Assembly (NCBI GenBank): GCA_024680915.1 | Contig: JAILBN010000101.1 | Span: 1-64,000 of the forward strand | Length of the DNA: 64,000 nt | From: Treponemataceae bacterium | Lineage (GTDB): Bacteria; Spirochaetota; Spirochaetia; Treponematales; Treponemataceae | Direction: 5' to 3' | Shown: piece by piece, positions 16,639-26,099 of the stretch | Layout of the letters: the number at the start of each line of letters is the position of its first letter | Position numbering within the stretch: position 1 is the first letter of the stretch | Notes under the pieces: generated by a model | The model's input: only the letters and a program-made list of their open reading frames with translations | What the model was told of the DNA's origin: nothing | The model's database searches: none | Translations under genes and position numbers: made by a program

Positions 16639-17621
16639 ACGCTGATTATATTATAGTTAGAGATTTCATCCTGAGACAAGTGATTTTTTATAAAAAATAA
16701 TAATTTTTCAGGAATATTTGCAGTCACTGATTCCGGCAAACCTATGGAATTATCAGAGGGGAAAGTCATCCTCCAGGAGTGGAGCATAAAATGTCCATCA
16801 ATGCTTTGTGGATTCTTGCCACCATAAGCAGTATCACCGAGAAGAGGAAAGCCATGGGATGAACATTGGCATCTGATCTGATGCTTTCTTCCTGTATCGA
16901 TTTCGACAAGAGCCAGAGTAACATTCAAATTTTCATATGTACCATGAGATAAGGGGGTTACGACAGTCCTTGCTTTTTTACCATCCTGCTTGGTGATTCT
17001 AACCTTATGGAATCCGTTTTTTCCCAAGGATGGGGCTTGGTCAGAATCCCAGTCTGTTGAAATCATATCCTCAAAAAGCATTTTTTCTTTCAGCTTTCCA
17101 CAAAGGATGGCAAGGTATTCTTTCTTTACGGCATGTTTCCTGAGCAATTCTGAAAATACCAGAGCACCCTTATGATTCTGTGAGAAAACCACAAGTCCGG
17201 TTGTATGCCTGTCTATTCTATGCAAAGGCCCCGGATTGAATGACAAGGATTTCTCATCTGGAAGAAACTGACTTTTCACTATAACATCCAAGGATCTTTC
17301 ATCTCCATGAACACTTATTCCGTATGGTTTGTTAATTATCCGGACGAAGGAGTTTCTGAAAACATCTTCTATTTCTATAAAAGCTTTCGCATCTTGAGTC
17401 TTCTCACCTTCAATTGAGTCCGTGACTTTTGGTATCCGTATCTCATCGTTTTTTTTCACTCTATAATTGCAATCGGTTTTTTCCCCATTTACCCTAATGG
17501 TTCCGGTTCGTATATACTTATAAATCTTAGACATTGGACTGTTCTTAAGAAATATTCTAAGGACCCTGTCAAGCCTTCTTCCTTCGTCGTCAATTCCTGC
17601 CGTGTATTGCAAAAAATCCAT
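16635..17621 (-). CDS. RluC/RluD-family pseudouridine synthase
   Basis: A 328-residue rRNA pseudouridine synthase. The N-terminal S4 RNA-binding domain contains RRLDRVLRIFLKN and YIRTGTIRVNGEKTD. The catalytic domain has INKPYGISVHG, the catalytic Asp in GPLHRIDRHTTGLVVFSQ, and RKHQIRCQCSSHGFPLLGD. I chose the ATG at 17621, which lies directly before the S4 domain and 7 nt after a TTGACC-N17-TATTAT promoter; an upstream TTG at 17642 would lie upstream of that transcription start. The target position (RluC-type or RluD-type) cannot be assigned. Confidence 0.9.
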   Translation of the reverse strand: MDFLQYTAGIDDEGRRLDRVLRIFLKNSPMSKIYKYIRTGTIRVNGEKTDCNYRVKKNDEIRIPKVTDSIEGEKTQDAKAFIEIEDVFRNSFVRIINKPYGISVHGDERSLDVIVKSQFLPDEKSLSFNPGPLHRIDRHTTGLVVFSQNHKGALVFSELLRKHAVKKEYLAILCGKLKEKMLFEDMISTDWDSDQAPSLGKNGFHKVRITKQDGKKARTVVTPLSHGTYENLNVTLALVEIDTGRKHQIRCQCSSHGFPLLGDTAYGGKNPQSIDGHFMLHSWRMTFPSDNSIGLPESVTANIPEKLLFFIKNHLSQDEISNYNIISV

Positions 17622-17628
17622 ATTAACT

Positions 17629-17657
17629 ATAATATTTACCAAGTTATGCTAGGTCAA
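17629..17657 (-). promoter_or_regulatory. promoter of the RluD-family gene, leaderless arrangement
   Basis: On the minus strand TTGACC (complement of 17652-17657), exactly 17 nt, then TATTAT (complement of 17629-17634). The -10 ends 7 nt before the ATG at 17621. The same AT-rich block reads TATAAT on the plus strand (17628-17633), 12 nt before the DUF212 start, so two divergent promoters share their -10. Confidence 0.65.
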
Positions 17658-18128
17658 GCAAAGTTTCAGATGCAGACTCTGGTTTCGAACCCAGTTTTCT
17701 TATCACTTGTGTTCAGCTGGTTTTCTGCACAATTTATAAAAACATTGATAAAATTACTTTCTGGAAAAGTCCATTCATTAAAAGAACTTATTGAACTGAT
17801 GTTTTGGAAGACCGGTGGCATGCCTTCCAGCCATACAGCCTTAGTTATGTCTCTTTGTGTTTCGATCGGGTTTAGGAATGGAGTGACATCAGACATTTTT
17901 ATCCTTTCTGTGGCATTTGCTATTGTAGTCGTAAGAGATGCAGTAGGAGTCCGGCGTTCTAGCGGCTTGCAGACCAAGGCTCTCAATGAACTGAGCTTAC
18001 AGTTGAAATCAAAAGGAATCATAGATGATTTCGTACCTCTAAAGGAGATTCATGGTCATAAACCTGCCGAAGTCATTATGGGTTGTTTTTTAGGTGTGTT
18101 TATCGGCATAGCTTTTTCTGTCCTATAA
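17646..18128 (+). CDS. DUF212 family integral membrane protein (acid phosphatase/haloperoxidase-related)
   Basis: A 160-residue protein with several hydrophobic segments. The family signature is visible: NPVFLSLVFSWFSAQFIKT, the GGMPSSHTALVMSL block that resembles a PAP2/haloperoxidase motif, VVRDAVGVRRSSG and the C-terminal GHKPAEVIMGCFLGVFIGI. Family members are small membrane proteins of unresolved biochemical role. The start is uncertain: ATG 17646 is closest to a TATAAT at 17628, ATG 17670 is possible, and neither has a strong Shine-Dalgarno. It is followed after 10 nt by the Rnf-linked membrane protein gene. Confidence 0.85.
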   Translation: MLGQAKFQMQTLVSNPVFLSLVFSWFSAQFIKTLIKLLSGKVHSLKELIELMFWKTGGMPSSHTALVMSLCVSIGFRNGVTSDIFILSVAFAIVVVRDAVGVRRSSGLQTKALNELSLQLKSKGIIDDFVPLKEIHGHKPAEVIMGCFLGVFIGIAFSVL

Positions 18129-18138
18129 GTAAGTTTAT

Positions 18139-19563
18139 ATGAAATCGATTCTGAAGATATTTCTAATTATACTTGCCGCCTCTTTTTTTTTAATACTTGT
18201 TTTTCTTTTCCGTATTCAACCATCAATCAAAATATGGGAGCAGTACAAAGTATTTTATTTTCCTTCTGACTACTCGCTGTATAAGATAAAAACGGCGATA
18301 AATGACGAAAATCTTCTTCAAGCTATTATTTTCGAGAATCCTGATTATCATCATGCATGGGTAAACATAATGCAGGCTGAAGAAAACTATGATACTGTCC
18401 GTGATTTTTCCCAAAAATACATGAGAGATTTCTTTTTTTATGATAAAACAGGTAGTTACCGTATAATATATGTTCCTGATGATATCTCATCAGATCTCAT
18501 CAGTTCTCTAAAAGCTTCAGGCATATCCTTCGGAACCGATAGTGTGAACAAATATCCTTATCTTTATCCTATTATCTCTTTTGTTTTTCTGATTCTTCTT
18601 GCGCTTTTCGGTAAAATGTCTTTTTTTCACTCTGTTTCTGCGGTTCCTCTTATTCTCTTTACCCTCTGGTGTCCATTTTATAATTCTGCTGTGGGTGTCC
18701 TATCTGCTCTGTTTGGCTTTTATACGGCAGAGCAATATGCAGGGAAAAAATACGGAATTACCAGGACCTTTCTTAATCCTGTTGTAATCATATGTCTCCT
18801 GTTCTCCCTTTTCTCAATTACAGCAGGAGGAATAAAACTTTTACTCTTATTCCTTTCCACCCTTGTTTCATCCATCCTTCTATGGATATCTTTGGTTTGT
18901 CTGAACAAAATATCACTGTCAGCTTATCATTTCCGTTATGTTCCCATTCTTACATCCAAGTCCTTTTATCCATACAAAAGAGTAACTTTTTTTTCCATTT
19001 CAATGGTTGCGGTAGCAGCTACAGTCCTTGCCTTATTTTTCTTCCTGTCTGCCGGTATCATCAGAAGCACAGGTGAGGATGACTTGTATCTACCTTCTCC
19101 TTCAGAGTATACTGAATCTGTGGGTATAAACAGCTCATCTTATTCCGAGCTAAAGGAATTCGATTCCAGAGAGTATCCTGATACAGCAGACTTCATCGAT
19201 GAATATTGGTTGAATATACGCTCTCAGTACAGCAGACTTTCTGATAATTATTCCAGTGAGGACATAACTCCAGGAGATATAATTGCGATTCCTGTTTTTA
19301 CGGAAGATACAGATGGTATTCACAGTGAGCTTAGGACAATAGAGTCTTTTGACGATAAATTCATTGATAAATTAACTCAAGAGTTCATAGGAAATGGGGG
19401 AGCAGAACAATTTCTTTTCTCTCAGGGGAAAATGTTCTCAACAAAATATGTAAAAGCGGGAGATAGATCCCATGACTTGAATTCCGCTTTATCAATAATT
19501 TCACTCTTTGTATTATTTGTGATATTATTTATCTTAAGACTAATAAAAGGCTGTAAAAAATGA
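18139..19563 (+). CDS. integral membrane protein of unknown function heading the Rnf-like operon
   Basis: A 474-residue protein I do not recognise. It has an N-terminal membrane anchor (IFLIILAASFFLILVFLF), then an extracytoplasmic region of about 110 residues. A block of five or six hydrophobic segments follows (residues about 140-310), then a second soluble region with many acidic residues (310-440) and a final membrane segment (LFVLFVILFILRLI). Its stop overlaps the rnfC ATG as ATGA, so it is translationally coupled to the Rnf-like genes. That placement suggests an accessory subunit or assembly factor, which is inference from context only. Confidence 0.7.
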   Translation: MKSILKIFLIILAASFFLILVFLFRIQPSIKIWEQYKVFYFPSDYSLYKIKTAINDENLLQAIIFENPDYHHAWVNIMQAEENYDTVRDFSQKYMRDFFFYDKTGSYRIIYVPDDISSDLISSLKASGISFGTDSVNKYPYLYPIISFVFLILLALFGKMSFFHSVSAVPLILFTLWCPFYNSAVGVLSALFGFYTAEQYAGKKYGITRTFLNPVVIICLLFSLFSITAGGIKLLLLFLSTLVSSILLWISLVCLNKISLSAYHFRYVPILTSKSFYPYKRVTFFSISMVAVAATVLALFFFLSAGIIRSTGEDDLYLPSPSEYTESVGINSSSYSELKEFDSREYPDTADFIDEYWLNIRSQYSRLSDNYSSEDITPGDIIAIPVFTEDTDGIHSELRTIESFDDKFIDKLTQEFIGNGGAEQFLFSQGKMFSTKYVKAGDRSHDLNSALSIISLFVLFVILFILRLIKGCKK

Positions 19564-20822
19564 ACATAAAGAAAAAAATGAATATACCCTATGTTGCTTT
19601 TTCAGAAGCTGTAGACGCATATTTACCCTTATATGATTTTGTTCCCCTTAAGGATGAAGAAGGTAAGGTATGTATACAGAAAACAGCCCTTAATACTCGG
19701 GTCAGTGAAGGACAGGTCCTTGGTAAATATGATGCTTACAGTGCTTCAGTTCATTCACCGGTTCCAGGAGTTTTGAAAGAGTACAGAAGTCTGCCTATGC
19801 CGGACGGAAAAACAACGGAAGTTGCTGTGATAAAGCTTGACGGAGAGTTTTCCTTCAAAGGCAAAAAAATAAGGAACCATAGCTGGGACAATCTTTCCTC
19901 AATCGACATATGTTCTATTCTTGCCGACAATGGTGTTATAAACACTTTCGATACACCTTGCTCAATTGCCAGAGAAATATTAAATCACAATGATCATAGA
20001 TCGGGGGAAACGACCCTTGCTCTTCGTCTTTTTGATGCAGATCCAAGTTGTCGTACTGACAGCTTTATCGCTCTTAAAAAAACGAAAGAAGTCCTTGAAG
20101 GCGCGCTGATTATCGCGAAAGCTCTCTCTGCCAGTAATATTTTTGTACTCTGTGAGAAAGATATCAAGTATTATTCTTCTTTTTCATTTGACAATATGAA
20201 TTTCATACATGTTCCTTCCTCAAAGCAGGTAATGTGTGGAAAAAAGAATATAGATACCATTCTTCAAAACAACAAATATCCTTATAAAACTTCTGTCGCA
20301 ATAGACAGTTCCACAGCATTTGCCGCATATGAAGCCGTTGTCTTGCAGAAGCCTCTTCTGGAGCGCTTTATACAAGTATCTGGAGACGCGTTAAAAAACA
20401 ACGTAATGTTCAGAGTACGTATAGGGACTCCTGTCAGGAAGCTTATAGAGCAATGCGGAGGATTCAAGAAGAAGCCTTATAAAATAATCATCAACGGCCT
20501 TATAAAAGGTACTGCTATTGCCGACCCGGATACTCCTGTGACAAACATTGTTAAGTCGATTACAATCCTGTCCCGTATCTCTGTGCCAGACCAAAAACAG
20601 TCTCATTGTATACACTGTGGCAATTGTCACAGAATCTGTCCTGTACATCTGCATCCCGATGCATTCTTTGATTACTATTATTTTCATAAAGAACTTTCTG
20701 AAGCTTTTATCAATTCCTCACGTCTATGTATTCAATGCGGTCTATGTAACACCAGTTGTCCTTCAAGACTTCCTTTGTTCCAATCGATCGCTTTAATCAA
20801 AGGAACCTTAAATGAAAAATAA
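19560..20822 (+). CDS. rnfC: RnfC-like ferredoxin:NAD+ oxidoreductase subunit, glycine-rich loop missing
   Basis: In canonical Rnf, RnfC is the cytosolic NADH/FMN-binding subunit with two [4Fe-4S] clusters. This 420-residue protein keeps the N-terminal biotinyl-like fold (VSEGQVLGKYDAYSASVHSP), the VRIGTPVRKLIEQCGGF segment and both cluster motifs, CIHCGNCHRICP and CIQCGLCNTSCP. At the position of the usual glycine-rich GxGGAxFPT nucleotide/FMN loop it instead reads NGVINTFDTPCSIAREI. The usual YPQGGEKQL motif is also not visible (HVPSSKQVMCGKKN). So the family call is firm, but NADH/FMN binding is doubtful. It overlaps its neighbours by 4 and 11 nt. Confidence 0.85.
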   Translation: MNIKKKMNIPYVAFSEAVDAYLPLYDFVPLKDEEGKVCIQKTALNTRVSEGQVLGKYDAYSASVHSPVPGVLKEYRSLPMPDGKTTEVAVIKLDGEFSFKGKKIRNHSWDNLSSIDICSILADNGVINTFDTPCSIAREILNHNDHRSGETTLALRLFDADPSCRTDSFIALKKTKEVLEGALIIAKALSASNIFVLCEKDIKYYSSFSFDNMNFIHVPSSKQVMCGKKNIDTILQNNKYPYKTSVAIDSSTAFAAYEAVVLQKPLLERFIQVSGDALKNNVMFRVRIGTPVRKLIEQCGGFKKKPYKIIINGLIKGTAIADPDTPVTNIVKSITILSRISVPDQKQSHCIHCGNCHRICPVHLHPDAFFDYYYFHKELSEAFINSSRLCIQCGLCNTSCPSRLPLFQSIALIKGTLNEK

Positions 20823-21849
20823 ATATCAATTTCTGACACTAACACCTTTTTATAATTCTAAGCCCTCAATTGCTGATAGTGCGAAACTTACCCTGCTTCT
20901 TTTTGTTCCTCAGCTTGTCATCTTGTTTTTGACAAAAAGCTACAATGCTTTGATTATAATAGGAATTTCAATTTTTTCTTCCTTTGCTGCAGATTTTATA
21001 AACAATTGTCTTAAACATTCAAAGTTCAGGATTGATTTTACTGTTATTCTGCAAGGGCTTTTTATAGGTTTTTTTATACCTGAGAATTATCCGCCGGCAG
21101 TAGTTTTTTTCGTAGTCCCCGTGGTTCTGCTTCTATCTAAATATATATCAGGTGGGTTCGCTTTCTCCTGGGTCAATCCTGCTGTGCTGGCAGTACTATT
21201 TCTTTTTTTCCTTAACAGCAGTATATTCCCTCACTTTCAAATTCCTACCGAATACCTGAAGAACATAAATATCTTCTCAAACCTTCTGGGGGATGGAACC
21301 TTCTCAATACAACCTTTTGACAAGGTGGTAACTTCCTTCTTAAACAAGAATATTTTCAAATTCACTGGCTTAACCTTACCAGAAGGATACATTTCTCTTC
21401 TTTGGGATAACGGGAGCGTTATAGCTGGATTCAGATTTAATATACTCACCTTGTTCGCGACAATAATTCTCATCTCTTTTGATATGATAGACTGGTTGAT
21501 TCCCTCTGTATTCCTGATCGTATATGCTTTTTGTGTAAGAATATTCGGTACCGTACCTTTTGGGAATATTTATAATTCAGGAGATATTCTTCTTGCCCTC
21601 TGTACAAGCGGAACCTTTATCTGTGCTTTTTTCGTTTTACCATGGGCAGGAACAACACCGTCAAGCATTCCAGGTAAAATAATTTATGCAGTAATAGCAG
21701 GTCTTTTTTCTTTCCTTATTAATGGCTCCGGTACAGGTCATATTGGTTCAATGTTCGTCGTCCTGATCGTTAATATAATATCACCTTTTATTCAAATACT
21801 AGAAGATTTTTGCTATACGACTTTCTTCTTAAAGAAACAGGAGATGTAA
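20812..21849 (+). CDS. rnfD: RnfD/NqrB-like membrane subunit, flavinylation Thr not seen
   Basis: A 345-residue multi-span membrane protein with RnfD features: an N-terminal SPxx-like start (TPFYNSKPSIADSAKLTLLLF), the IDFTVILQGLFIGFFIPENYPP region, SWVNPAVLAVLFLFFL, and a C-terminal HIGSMFVVLIVNIISPFI block. Canonical RnfD carries a covalent FMN on the Thr of a D-G-V-S-G-A-T motif. The corresponding stretch here appears to be FDKVVTSFLNK, with Phe where the Thr should be (by-eye alignment). The ATG lies within the end of rnfC. Confidence 0.82.
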   Translation: MKNKYQFLTLTPFYNSKPSIADSAKLTLLLFVPQLVILFLTKSYNALIIIGISIFSSFAADFINNCLKHSKFRIDFTVILQGLFIGFFIPENYPPAVVFFVVPVVLLLSKYISGGFAFSWVNPAVLAVLFLFFLNSSIFPHFQIPTEYLKNINIFSNLLGDGTFSIQPFDKVVTSFLNKNIFKFTGLTLPEGYISLLWDNGSVIAGFRFNILTLFATIILISFDMIDWLIPSVFLIVYAFCVRIFGTVPFGNIYNSGDILLALCTSGTFICAFFVLPWAGTTPSSIPGKIIYAVIAGLFSFLINGSGTGHIGSMFVVLIVNIISPFIQILEDFCYTTFFLKKQEM

Positions 21850-21852
21850 AAG

Positions 21853-22332
21853 ATGAATAAAGAGCTTAAACTTCTTCTTCATAAATATGGAGCCTTTACA
21901 GTAATCCTTCTAGCCTTGTTTTTTATACTTGCCACAGTGACCCTGCTATCCAAAAATACATGGGAAAACAAGCTTCGTGAAAGTGTCTCCTCTGTCCTTG
22001 TTTCTAAATATGGTGATTTATATAGCGTAGACGAATATATAAATATACAGACACCTGCAATATTATCTACTGCAATATATTCAATTACAAACAAAGAAAG
22101 TAATGAGAAGGGCAAAGCCATACTGATTCGTATCACAGGGATCTCCGGTCCTACGGCAGCTGTATATACATATTTCGATGGATTTGAAAAAGGCTCCTTC
22201 GCAGGTTATGCGGCAAACACACTATTTTTATCTGGTGAAAACGGACTTGATTACAGTGCTTCTGAAACGCAGATCAACTATTACGCCCGCCGGATTCCAC
22301 AGTTAATTTCAAAAGGAATAGAAAAAGAATGA
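21853..22332 (+). CDS. rnfG: RnfG-like subunit, short, degenerate flavinylation motif
   Basis: A 159-residue protein with one N-terminal membrane segment (AFTVILLALFFILATVTLL) and an extracytoplasmic FMN-binding-type domain, shorter than typical RnfG (about 180-210). Near the C-terminus canonical RnfG has D-x-x-S-G-A-T-x-T/S, where the Thr is flavinylated. Here the stretch is GLDYSASETQINYY: a Thr is present at the same distance from the Asp, but the S-G-A context and the following Ser/Thr are lost. It has an AGGAG Shine-Dalgarno 11 nt before the ATG and overlaps the next gene by 4 nt. Confidence 0.75.
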   Translation: MNKELKLLLHKYGAFTVILLALFFILATVTLLSKNTWENKLRESVSSVLVSKYGDLYSVDEYINIQTPAILSTAIYSITNKESNEKGKAILIRITGISGPTAAVYTYFDGFEKGSFAGYAANTLFLSGENGLDYSASETQINYYARRIPQLISKGIEKE

Positions 22333-22931
22333 GAAAATCGATTTTTATGTTCACTACAGCAATACTTTGTTTTATTGTTCCTTTACCCTCCAGATTCGCA
22401 TACACATTGGTAATGCTGCTTGCAATTAATTTTATCATGCTAACAGGAACTACCCTTAAAGTTTTCATCGGAAAACTTAATTTACAGAATCTTGAACCGC
22501 TCCTTCTGATTGTTTTTATTATTTCGATGACCATACTTTTCAAACAGCTTTTAATTCTTTTTTCCCCAATAATAGCTTTCACCATCGGGTTCGTTATTTA
22601 TCTTGCCCCGGCATCTGCTTTCTTAAACGGTCACATTCTCGAGCCAAAAGAAAAATACACAGGCAATATATTTTCTATAAACATGAGAAACGCTGGGATT
22701 ATATCTGCAATAGCTTCCATAGTATCAATCATAAGGGAATTCCTTGCTTATGGGTCTTTTTCCCTTCCTTTCAGAGATGGAATACATATATATAAATATC
22801 CCTTCGTAAAAACAACAACGCTCTCTTTTTTCTTTTCGACCATATCAGGAGCTTTTGTCCTAACCGGTTTAGTATTCGCTTTTTTCGTCTTTATTAATAG
22901 AAAAATTGAGATAGCAAGGAGGAAGGATTAG
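22329..22931 (+). CDS. rnfE: RnfE/NqrD-like membrane subunit with one of two cluster cysteines
   Basis: A 200-residue protein with six hydrophobic segments, in the RnfE position of a C-D-G-E-A-B order. RnfE and RnfA normally supply two cysteines each to an intramembrane [2Fe-2S] cluster. Here a Cys is present near the first site (TTAILCFIVPLPS), but the second site, usually V-N-C-I-I-I-G-R-A-E-A-F, reads GFVIYLAPASAF with Val in place of Cys. The RDGIHIYKYPF segment corresponds to the periplasmic loop of family members. Assignment rests on length, topology, order and residual similarity. Confidence 0.7.
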   Translation: MRKSIFMFTTAILCFIVPLPSRFAYTLVMLLAINFIMLTGTTLKVFIGKLNLQNLEPLLLIVFIISMTILFKQLLILFSPIIAFTIGFVIYLAPASAFLNGHILEPKEKYTGNIFSINMRNAGIISAIASIVSIIREFLAYGSFSLPFRDGIHIYKYPFVKTTTLSFFFSTISGAFVLTGLVFAFFVFINRKIEIARRKD

Positions 22932-22934
22932 AAT

Positions 22935-23489
22935 ATGTTCCAACTTCTTCTTTTTTATACACTTGTTTCTTCCGCAGTGTTTGTTTATGGAATAGGTCTG
23001 AATAAGATAATTGTTTTTTCAAAAAAGCCTCAGGATACATTGGTTTTCCTCTCGAAAGAGCTTATCGTTATACTTCTTTCTTTATGTATTTGCTGGCCTC
23101 TGACTAGATTCATTCTTGTCCCCAATGGCCTTGTAGAATTATACCCCTTTTTCAGTTTTTTCATTATACATCTTATATCCATCGTCATTACAGAATTCTC
23201 AGCCCGTGTACTTAAAAAAAATGTGACAGGTTTTTATTTTTCATACTGTACGCTCCTTCTTGCCATAAATGAAGGCTTGACCTTTGCAAACGCCATTATC
23301 ATCGCGGTAGCATGTATTCTCGCCTTCTTTTGTATGCTTCCAATAATTTATGCGGCAAGATGGAAAATGAAAAGTAATCTGCAATATATCAGCTTTAAGG
23401 ATGGCGCCATGCTTTTTTTATGCATAGCCGTAATCCTTTTTATATTCTTTGCATTTAATGTTTCTTGGCTAAATCCTGAGGTATTCTGA
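22935..23489 (+). CDS. rnfA: RnfA/NqrE-like membrane subunit with one of two cluster cysteines
   Basis: A 184-residue, six-span membrane protein collinear with RnfA: LVSSAVFVYGIGLNKIIVFS aligns without gaps to the canonical LVNNFVLSRFLGICPFLGVS, placing Asn where the first cluster Cys should be. The second site, usually T-N-C-A-V-L-G-V-A-L, is SYCTLLLAINEGL, so that Cys is kept. Together with RnfE only two of the four expected [2Fe-2S] ligands remain. It ends in a 1-nt TGATG overlap with rnfB. Confidence 0.75.
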   Translation: MFQLLLFYTLVSSAVFVYGIGLNKIIVFSKKPQDTLVFLSKELIVILLSLCICWPLTRFILVPNGLVELYPFFSFFIIHLISIVITEFSARVLKKNVTGFYFSYCTLLLAINEGLTFANAIIIAVACILAFFCMLPIIYAARWKMKSNLQYISFKDGAMLFLCIAVILFIFFAFNVSWLNPEVF

Positions 23490-24109
23490 TGTTTATCGCA
23501 TTTCTAGTATGTGTTTTAATTATTCTTGCCGTAGGCGGCATTAGTTTTCTCTTGTTCATTTATTTTAGGTTTAATCCAGAAATGGTTTTTTCTGCAGAAG
23601 AAAAAGATTTTTTGAATAATCTTATAGAACCTTATGACAGTGACAACGGTCTTTGTGCGGTGGTGAAATGCTCTCCTGATAGAGATAATCACACAAATCT
23701 TTTGGAACATAGCGAAATGACAGATTGTCGTTTGTTCTCAGAAATCTATGGTAAAGAACAGTTTTGTAAATGGGGATGTCTGGGTTACGGAACCTGTGTC
23801 ACTTTCTGTCCCCAACAGGCTATAATTATAAAAAACGGGACAGCCGTTATAACAGAATCTTGCAATGGATGCGGAGCCTGTGTGGATCATTGTCCTCAAC
23901 ATATTATAGAACTTATTCCCAGGGAAAAAGAATATTTTGTTCAATGTTCTTTGCCAGAAGACGAGACATGCGATAATTGTTCAGTCAGCTGTACTTCATG
24001 CAGAGGCTGCAGGAAGGAAGAAACACTCACTCTTGAGATTGCAAAGAAATGTCCGAGAAAATGTATTAAAAAAATCACAAATCCTTTTTCAAAAGGCTTT
24101 AAATTATAA
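23489..24109 (+). CDS. rnfB: RnfB-like ferredoxin subunit lacking the N-terminal Fe-S motif
   Basis: A 206-residue protein with one N-terminal membrane anchor (IAFLVCVLIILAVGGISFLL). It keeps the Rnf-specific CAVVKCSPDRD, CKWGCLGYGTCVTFCP (C-x3-C-x4-C-x3-C) and the ferredoxin motif CNGCGACVDHCP, plus a Cys-rich C-terminus (CDNCSVSCTSCRGCRK). Canonical RnfB has an extra N-terminal domain with a C-G-x-C-G-x-x-x-C cluster motif between the anchor and the KCS segment. Here those segments are only about 50 residues apart, and no such motif is present. RnfB normally accepts electrons from reduced ferredoxin. Confidence 0.85.
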   Translation: MFIAFLVCVLIILAVGGISFLLFIYFRFNPEMVFSAEEKDFLNNLIEPYDSDNGLCAVVKCSPDRDNHTNLLEHSEMTDCRLFSEIYGKEQFCKWGCLGYGTCVTFCPQQAIIIKNGTAVITESCNGCGACVDHCPQHIIELIPREKEYFVQCSLPEDETCDNCSVSCTSCRGCRKEETLTLEIAKKCPRKCIKKITNPFSKGFKL

Positions 24110-24209: not shown

Positions 24210-26099
24210 ATGGAGAATATGAGTGTTTGTTTTGTACTCAGACTTGATTCTGAAGGAATACTGAATGATCACGAAGAAGAAACACAGTATCAGAATCATA
24301 TAAAACACATTCTTTCTTTTCTTTATTCTCATCAGGAGTTCTCTCTTACCATAGCGCTCTCAGGACGGAAATCTGAATGGCTTGAAAAAAAACATCCGGA
24401 GGCTATAGAACTCATTTCGGAGTTAGTCTCAAAAAAACAGGTCGAGATGGCAGGAGGAGGGTACTATGATCCTATACTTCCCTTGCTGCTCCCTGTAGAC
24501 AGAGTCGGACAGATTGAAATGCTGACGACAGCCCTTAGAAAGCTTTTCGGAAGAAAACCAAGAGGTGCATGGCTTACAAGCAGCGCTTGGGATTCATCCC
24601 TAATAACAAGCTTGAATTCCTGTGGTATGGATTATGCATTTATCGACATGTCCTTATTACTACCAGAATATCAGTTGGAATCATTCTGCTCAAAACCTGT
24701 AATAGTCGAGGAATATGGAAAAACAATAAAAATCCTTCCTCTATGCAAAAATGTGATACCTTCGAAATCTGATTCCCCGCAAGATTTCCTTTCCTCCTTC
24801 TTTAAGCTATCTGGCAACAAAAAAATAACCACGATATCCACTTTATTTATGCCTGAAGAGTTATCATTCATAATACAAAACGGTTGGATGGAGGAATTCA
24901 TTACAACTATTACCAATGAAAAGACTGTAACCTTATATACAGCGACACAATATTTAAAGAACTGTCATACATACACCAGAGCATATATACCAGCCTGTTC
25001 TATAAAAAACAGGCGTCCAGTAAAAGAAATCATCGCTAAAAATCCTGAATCCTTCAGACTATATTCCCGAATGATTCAAATTTCAAATGAAATAAATCAA
25101 TACCGTGGAGATAAAGCCAGGAAAAAGGCCGCAAGAGAGGAGCTTTGGAAAGCTCAGGAAAGAACAGCTTACTGGAACGAAAATCTCGATTTGATTGAGC
25201 AGCAGGCAATACGGCAGAAGTCTTATAATCATCTACTTATAGCTGAAAAGTTTATAAAAGAAACATCCTCTAAAACTGATATTCATCTTACATCTTTTGA
25301 CCTTGATATGGATGGAATTCAGGAATATATCTGCAGGACTCCTGTCTATAATTCTTTTCTCTCCATGGAAGGTGGGACAGTTTTTGAACTTGATGCAAGA
25401 CAAAGCTGTAGGAATTATGCAATTGTGTCCGAATGCGAAAATGGCTTATACCAAAGAAAATTTTTCACAGATTTTTTTGCCGATAAAAACTCTTTTTTCG
25501 ATCAGTATCAGAATGGAAAGCCACTTTTGAACAATCCCTTCAGGGATATTGTATATAAAGAAACAGCTTTTTACAGGTCAAGACAAGAATTACAGCTTGA
25601 GGCAGAAGGTTTTTACGGGAAAAAGCGCCAGAATATAACGCTCCGTAAAAAATTCCTTTTCTCTGATAATTCAATTCAAGTTCAATACATAATCAAAAAC
25701 AAAAGTCCGGATTACTTAAAATGTTATTTCTCAGTCGAGTCAAACCTTGCTCTTGTCGATTTCGATACAAAAAACCGTCGTATAGAAGTGATATCTTCAG
25801 ATACAAGTATAACGGCTTGTTCTAATCAATTGTTTGTGCATCAGAAGGATGTTTCCTGCTGCCAGGTATCTGACTCAAAAACCTCATCTGTATTCACCTT
25901 CGAGACCAACGAAAATGCAGGCATCTGCATATTGCCCCTTGTTTATGAAAAGAAACCTTATGCTACATGCTTTACTTTCTTTTGGAAACTAGAGATACCT
26001 GCCGGCTATGAAACAGAAAAAACACTTTTCCTTAATATACAGCAAAATACAAAAAAAGCTCTTTCCCAAAAGAAAGGTCCCTCTGCGACAAAATCATAA
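24210..26099 (+). CDS. GH57-like protein (4-alpha-glucanotransferase/amylopullulanase family) without catalytic residues
   Basis: A 629-residue protein with the GH57 architecture: an N-terminal (beta/alpha)7 region including QVEMAGGGYYDPILPLL and VGQIEMLTTALRKLFG, a helical middle, and a C-terminal beta-sandwich resembling DUF1926. The region that in active enzymes reads G-x-W-L-T-E-R-V-W-E-P (catalytic Glu) is GAWLTSSAWDSSL here, with Ser at the nucleophile. The D-G-E-K-F-G acid motif and the N-terminal H-Q-P motif are also absent. The frame is intact over its full length. It is therefore probably a pseudoenzyme that may bind glucans. GGAG about 10 nt before the ATG. Confidence 0.75.
   Translation: MENMSVCFVLRLDSEGILNDHEEETQYQNHIKHILSFLYSHQEFSLTIALSGRKSEWLEKKHPEAIELISELVSKKQVEMAGGGYYDPILPLLLPVDRVGQIEMLTTALRKLFGRKPRGAWLTSSAWDSSLITSLNSCGMDYAFIDMSLLLPEYQLESFCSKPVIVEEYGKTIKILPLCKNVIPSKSDSPQDFLSSFFKLSGNKKITTISTLFMPEELSFIIQNGWMEEFITTITNEKTVTLYTATQYLKNCHTYTRAYIPACSIKNRRPVKEIIAKNPESFRLYSRMIQISNEINQYRGDKARKKAAREELWKAQERTAYWNENLDLIEQQAIRQKSYNHLLIAEKFIKETSSKTDIHLTSFDLDMDGIQEYICRTPVYNSFLSMEGGTVFELDARQSCRNYAIVSECENGLYQRKFFTDFFADKNSFFDQYQNGKPLLNNPFRDIVYKETAFYRSRQELQLEAEGFYGKKRQNITLRKKFLFSDNSIQVQYIIKNKSPDYLKCYFSVESNLALVDFDTKNRRIEVISSDTSITACSNQLFVHQKDVSCCQVSDSKTSSVFTFETNENAGICILPLVYEKKPYATCFTFFWKLEIPAGYETEKTLFLNIQQNTKKALSQKKGPSATKS

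Follow-up and report, generated by a model that had tools for sequence, protein, structure and literature searches.

Can an Rnf complex still carry electrons across the membrane once the residues that hold its cofactors are gone? The question is raised by an Rnf-like operon at positions 19560-24109 of the window analysed here, a 64,000-nucleotide stretch (contig C32) of a 3.15 Mb Treponemataceae genome, in which homologues of all six subunits lie in one operon in the order C-D-G-E-A-B. In this operon, which we refer to as the stripped operon, the RnfC loop for flavin mononucleotide (FMN) and reduced nicotinamide adenine dinucleotide (NADH), the FMN-Thr motifs of RnfD and RnfG, and most [2Fe-2S] ligands of RnfA and RnfE are gone. 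We are highly confident in this picture and in its corollary, that the complex would be neither flavinylated by ApbE nor able to perform ferredoxin/flavodoxin:NAD+ oxidoreduction by the U-shaped route. The losses are read from sequence motifs, and their consequences for flavinylation and oxidoreduction are drawn from the known Rnf mechanism. Overall, the operon is best explained, and probably correctly so, as an inherited Rnf from which the electron path has been removed and which has been retained for another role.

ApbE recognises the motif D-x-x-[ST]-G-A-[ST] (PMC12052999), and neither RnfD nor RnfG of the window contains it. Our comparison of cofactor sites covered 47 Treponemataceae loci, the window included (46 for RnfG), and no orthologous locus of the family has a flavinylation motif at the attachment site of either protein (RnfD 0/47, RnfG 0/46). 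The suggestion in a preliminary description of this DNA that neither subunit would be a normal ApbE substrate is thus well supported, and alignment of both proteins recovered no intact motif. Matches to the looser pattern [ST][GSA]A[ST] occur in three RnfD proteins of the family, all far from the site, and do not restore the motif under an alternative alignment.

The open reading frames are as first described, and the motifs are missing from both attachment sites as claimed; the RnfD site had been misplaced. In RnfD (20812-21849, 345 aa) canonical SGAT aligns with residues ~149-152, within TEYLKNI (21247-21267), where SGATP has been lost. This is ~20-25 residues upstream of FDKVVTSFLNK (21316-21348, residues 169-179), the stretch originally read as the degenerate site. 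FDKVVTSFLNK is instead a conserved D-xxx-T-xxx-N element that intermediate spirochaete RnfD proteins carry (e.g. FDRSVTDFLNR) in addition to an intact SGATP, which lies 25-35 residues further upstream; the element is not the flavin site. The RnfG stretch LDYSASETQINYY (22246-22284) does lie at the position homologous to the motif, immediately ahead of the C-terminal helix, in a protein (21853-22332, 159 aa) shortened by ~20 residues and lacking the whole motif region. Its Thr139 was not kept within the genus: the position reads T, T, T, R, S, K and A across seven members, and because the residue varies in this way it is no maintained acceptor.

Might ApbE nonetheless flavinylate one of these proteins at an unusual site, such as RnfD Thr174 or RnfG Thr139? 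The conservation of Thr174 in >90% of aligned family RnfD could be taken that way. However, the Thr174 element also stands downstream of intact SGAT in the intermediates, it is retained in genomes that lack ApbE, and T. pallidum has Arg at the position, so that Thr174 is unlikely to be an ApbE acceptor. Together with the variability of Thr139 and the motif that ApbE is known to recognise, these observations leave unusual-site flavinylation with next to no credibility.

Nor does the host lack the enzyme, whose gene the preliminary description had proposed to look for in the rest of the genome. The window genome encodes a single ApbE (contig C20), and contig C5 carries a complete canonical Rnf with RnfD SDAVSGATPL, RnfG DFDAISGATIT, all [2Fe-2S] Cys and the RnfC loop GMGGAAFP. 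Fumarate-reductase-like flavoproteins of the host (L009:760-3351, L010:2344-4140) have one or two FMN_bind domains with intact SGAT motifs and are likely ApbE clients. The intact motifs in the canonical Rnf and in these flavoproteins indicate that ApbE has clients outside the stripped operon, and a lack of ApbE in the host is ruled out. Across the family, where absences in draft genomes may reflect incompleteness, ApbE is missing from six genomes. Five of these are at least 93% complete and represent three genera; they have no canonical Rnf and no detectable ApbE, and keep the stripped operon, which therefore does not depend on ApbE. The joint absence of ApbE and canonical Rnf is significant by Fisher's test (p=7e-5, uncorrected for kinship).

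RnfC, RnfA and RnfE are affected as well, beyond what had first been reported. In RnfC (19560-20822, 420 aa), GVINTFDTPCSI (19932-19967) stands at the position of the canonical FMN/NADH loop GMGGAAFPTH, and the loop (GxGGAxFP; GMGGAAFP in canonical Rnf) is present in 0/47 family loci. The two [4Fe-4S] motifs of the same protein, CIHCGNCHRIC (20607-20639) and CIQCGLCNTSC (20727-20759), are intact, and all eight Cys are retained in 47/47 loci. The intramembrane [2Fe-2S] cluster of RnfA and RnfE has at most 1 of its 4 ligand Cys aligned in any locus of the family. Its remnants in the window are Cys14 of RnfE (22329-22931, 200 aa) at the first ligand position, the second being replaced (LAPASAFL), and a Cys at or near the second site of RnfA (22935-23489, 184 aa; SYCTLLL), where the first is replaced (YGIGLNK). 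In the riboflavin pocket of RnfD, defined by N123 and D249 of Acetobacterium woodii, the Asn is kept in 43/47 loci (Asn122 of the window, in SWVNP, 21166-21180), while the Asp is found in 10/47 and a Trp in 25/47, among them the window (Trp278, in VLPWAGTTP, 21634-21660).

RnfB of the window (23489-24109, 206 aa) is shortened and has two recognisable [4Fe-4S] motifs, CKWGCLGYGTC and CNGCGACVDHC. RnfB is weak or absent in ~1/3 of family loci (L042, L044, L048, L049, L051, L052, L054, L057, L058, L062, L068, L071-L073 and L075), so that many treponemes can dispense with this entry point for electrons.

A. woodii Rnf becomes inactive when the [2Fe-2S] Cys of RnfA/E, the FMN-bearing Thr of RnfG or the riboflavin residues of RnfD are mutated (PMC11889175). 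With most of the RnfA/E ligands and the RnfG motif lost here, a conventional U-shaped electron path is therefore very unlikely. The published model of T. pallidum assumes otherwise, and the operon could still encode a cryptic ion pump driven by electrons, with non-covalently bound flavins or unrecognised ligands standing in for the lost cofactors. Purifying selection on the whole A/E/D/G membrane set, the invariant [4Fe-4S] motifs of RnfC and the riboflavin Asn would all be in keeping with such a pump, as would its standing as the sole Rnf of T. pallidum, for which a flavin-based Rnf has been proposed (PMC7512555; PMC11717252). Set against this are the family-wide loss of the RnfC loop, the truncation of RnfG together with its motif region, the near-complete loss of [2Fe-2S] ligands, and the A. 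woodii mutants, in which a single loss of an A/E, RnfG or riboflavin cofactor is enough to inactivate the complex. We regard a cryptic pump as improbable, yet it is one of the two main rivals to our preferred explanation.

These arguments require that the genes are Rnf genes at all. Scores of the window proteins fall below NCBIfam cut-offs (RnfC, TIGR01945, E=7e-55, 186 of 246 bits; RnfD, TIGR01946, 74.5 of 207), the RnfD frame matches only PF03116 (E=3e-38), and Pfam has no Rnf family that recognises RnfG, RnfE or RnfA, there being no FMN_bind match for RnfG and none to PF02508 for the other two. Profiles built from orthologues match solved structures, RnfC 7zc6_C in the PDB at E=3e-75 and RnfD 9eri_D at E=5e-30. 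The AlphaFold2 (AF2) model of RnfG (predicted local distance difference test, pLDDT, 90) aligns best with the RnfG chains of A. woodii, Clostridium tetanomorphum and Azotobacter vinelandii (Z 5-6); Foldseek by itself found no significant match for the models of RnfG or of P0, the first gene of the unit. From the profile matches and the RnfG alignment we conclude that the window genes are true, very divergent Rnf subunits. Misassembly, frameshift and pseudogene formation are ruled out by the intact frames and by orthologous operons in many genomes.

The operon is widespread and maintained. A profile of the atypical RnfD matches at E ~1e-30 or better in 132/140 Treponemataceae genomes, and the 8 without a strong match are all <88% complete. 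Between close relatives the proportion of nonsynonymous differences is far below that of synonymous ones (pN 0.11-0.27 vs pS 0.69-0.86, pS near saturation), and all genes of the operon are therefore under purifying selection. Cofactor sites were lost progressively across the tree, which might suggest a decaying relic without function, but such strong selection, frames and gene order that are undisturbed in almost every genome, and persistence in the 1.14 Mb genome of T. pallidum make decay hardly credible. Most genomes of the family, that of the window among them, have both stripped and canonical Rnf, which would allow the stripped subunits to mix with the canonical complex of the same cell as regulatory or hybrid partners. 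Yet canonical RnfA/E is missing from 17/145 genomes, several of them 97-99% complete and T. pallidum included, and in these 17 the stripped operon is the only Rnf. Mixing as a general explanation is accordingly a poor prospect, if a somewhat better one than decay.

Where did such an operon come from? The P0 gene upstream and a gene for a glycoside hydrolase family 57 (GH57) protein downstream mark the same locus across Spirochaetales. In 21 loci from elsewhere in Spirochaetales, the Rnf that these flanks enclose or adjoin keeps the RnfC loop and, where readable, the four [2Fe-2S] Cys, with the RnfG motif present in all but one. Between these and the fully stripped loci are intermediates. Among the sites checked, L109 has lost only the RnfC loop; L134, L149 and L162 have also lost the loop and keep DGLA[GA]ATP in RnfD and the four Cys; a group comprising L101, L102 and L108 is mixed, some sites being kept and others lost. 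None of these sites survives in the related families f1 (Treponemataceae) and f5.

The RnfC phylogeny supports the nesting of the stripped loci. In the RnfC tree (IQ-TREE; bootstrap/SH-like approximate likelihood ratio test, SH-aLRT) f1 and f5 group together (99/98), joined successively by an f3-like group (100/99), L109 (100/99) and the L134 group (90/82). The whole syntenic locus forms a clade (100/99), canonical Treponema Rnf stands apart from it (100/100), and the stripped loci nest, with ordered intermediates, inside the canonical Rnf of the same locus. The RnfD tree likewise recovers the locus clade (100) and f1+f5 (99); it leaves the order of the intermediates unsettled (f1+f5+f3-like 53; L109 not placed). 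Because canonical Rnf occupies the syntenic locus elsewhere in Spirochaetales and intermediates show stepwise loss, the stripped operon is a vertically inherited Spirochaetales Rnf whose transmembrane electron path was removed step by step. The losses did not follow one order throughout, since the side branches L131, L133 and L140 lost the [2Fe-2S] Cys and kept the RnfD motif. A spirochaete clade of L131, L133, L140 and L155 retains an RnfD [ST]A[AS]TP motif and has lost the RnfA/E [2Fe-2S] ligands. Ranging from canonical to completely stripped Rnf, the locus thus provides a natural series in which the order of cofactor loss from a redox pump and the remaining use of its membrane core can be followed.

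The unit in the window comprises seven tightly packed genes, P0, rnfC, rnfD, rnfG, rnfE, rnfA and rnfB, several with overlaps of a few bases and all, like every feature given here, on the + strand. P0 (18139-19563) encodes a 474 aa membrane protein and overlaps rnfC by 4 bases. The downstream flank, a GH57-family glycoside hydrolase/glucanotransferase gene (H, 24210-26099), is a conserved part of the locus; this GH57/4-alpha-glucanotransferase-like gene is the constant downstream neighbour of Rnf across Spirochaetales. Upstream of the operon lies a divergent PAP2 (DUF212) gene (17607-18128) that is also found beside rnfC in T. pallidum (L037:8525-9067).

The second main rival centres on P0, whose AF2 model gives top structure alignments exclusively to the resistance-nodulation-division (RND) superfamily (Patched, MmpL5, AdeJ and SecDF; Z ~8); the best E obtained for it with Foldseek is 0.025. 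The Rnf membrane subunits could be a non-redox scaffold or conduit for this RND-like protein, so that the complex would serve structure or transport and the RnfC clusters would be no more than structural. The overlap of P0 with the rnfC frame and its constant place across Spirochaetales, beside canonical and stripped Rnf alike, would fit such a partnership. That P0 also adjoins fully canonical Rnf nevertheless counts against this reading, and P0 is undetected in T. pallidum although C-D-G-E-A is kept there. Moreover, a Z of 8 is the level of a common arrangement, and the invariant cluster Cys of RnfC argue for redox use, given that the homologous NqrA manages without clusters (PMC4014512). We give the scaffold the same low standing as the cryptic pump.

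We return to the explanation that we prefer, an inherited Rnf without its electron path, kept for another role. What the stripped operon retains is the pair of RnfC [4Fe-4S] motifs, the RnfD riboflavin Asn in most loci, the gene order and purifying selection. As a tentative proposal, which we hold with low confidence, the complex may act as a redox-responsive gate or platform. The RnfC clusters, facing the cytosol, would exchange electrons with a soluble carrier (or with RnfB where it is kept), and electrons could possibly reach the riboflavin in RnfD. The redox state of the clusters would then gate or organise a membrane platform of RnfA, RnfE, RnfD and RnfG, joined by the RND-like P0 in loci that have it, rather than driving a pump, and the A/E/D/G core would have been kept for an activity other than electron carriage.

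Several points weigh against this explanation. The positive function, gating above all, is conjectural; non-covalent flavins or a cryptic [2Fe-2S] site may be compatible with the remaining residues, namely the ligand Cys of the window RnfE, the Cys at or near another ligand position in RnfA and the riboflavin Asn of 43 of the 47 RnfD proteins. In addition, the proposed role can require neither P0, which goes undetected in T. pallidum, nor RnfB, since this natural donor is at best weakly recognisable in roughly one-third of the family.

The implications are most direct for T. pallidum, with which the preliminary description had drawn a contrast that does not hold, since that organism has no Rnf other than the stripped operon. 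Genome G025 (1,139,633 bases, one contig) encodes an ApbE that matches TP0796 of T. pallidum, whose structure is solved (4IFU), along the full 295 residues of the search (E=7e-195), and on this match we identify the genome as T. pallidum or a near-identical relative. Its sole Rnf operon is a stripped C-D-G-E-A set with both [4Fe-4S] motifs in RnfC; no PF02508 protein, no RnfB and no P0 were detected in this genome. The flavinylated T. pallidum protein named in a review is the periplasmic lipoprotein TP_0171, not a subunit of this operon (PMC12052999).

The energy metabolism of T. pallidum is an open question, and published models centre on a noncanonical flavin-dependent RNF pump (flavodoxin:NAD+) proposed to energise its membrane (PMC7512555; PMC11717252). 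Judged by its sequence, the T. pallidum Rnf lacks the sites that such a pump is known to need, a loss that makes the model directly testable. Whether treponemes including T. pallidum have converted an ancestral respiratory complex that pumped ions into one that sits in the membrane without an electron path across it, keeping only the cytosolic RnfC clusters, is, in our estimation, evenly balanced. If so, the published model would need revision: the flavin-based pump presumed to serve respiration in the syphilis spirochete would not be a respiratory pump, and the operon would represent a new functional class of Rnf-derived complex, whether redox-responsive gate, channel or assembly platform. 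We found no description of an Rnf lacking all of these sites in the Creative Commons (CC)-licensed literature, to which the search was limited and which makes this weak evidence of novelty.

Among known systems, the Rnf complexes of A. woodii, C. tetanomorphum and A. vinelandii, for which structures are available, share with the stripped operon the C-D-G-E-A-B set and order, the homology of RnfC and RnfD, the RnfG fold and the two [4Fe-4S] clusters of RnfC. They differ from it in the RnfC FMN/NADH loop and the covalent-FMN motifs of RnfD and RnfG, all absent from the stripped operon, in the RnfA/E [2Fe-2S] ligands, here mostly gone, and in RnfB, here short or missing. The noncanonical RNF of the T. 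pallidum model corresponds to the same stripped operon in the genome, but the literature depicts it as a flavodoxin:NAD+ pump that depends on flavin. The Nqr/Rnf-like two-subunit systems (PMC8238504, PMC11334425) likewise have an RnfD/NqrB-type subunit without the flavinylation Thr. Those systems, however, keep a flavinylated RnfG/NqrC-type subunit and an NAD-binding domain, whereas the stripped operon has lost the RnfG site and has all six subunits; the window contains no fusion of RnfD to an NAD-binding PF00175 domain with a flavinylated partner. Finally, Na+-NQR has a homologous membrane core, and its NqrA, like RnfC here, is without an NADH/FMN site. NqrB and NqrC keep their covalent FMN, whereas the stripped operon, which has no NqrF, keeps instead the RnfC clusters that are absent from NqrA.

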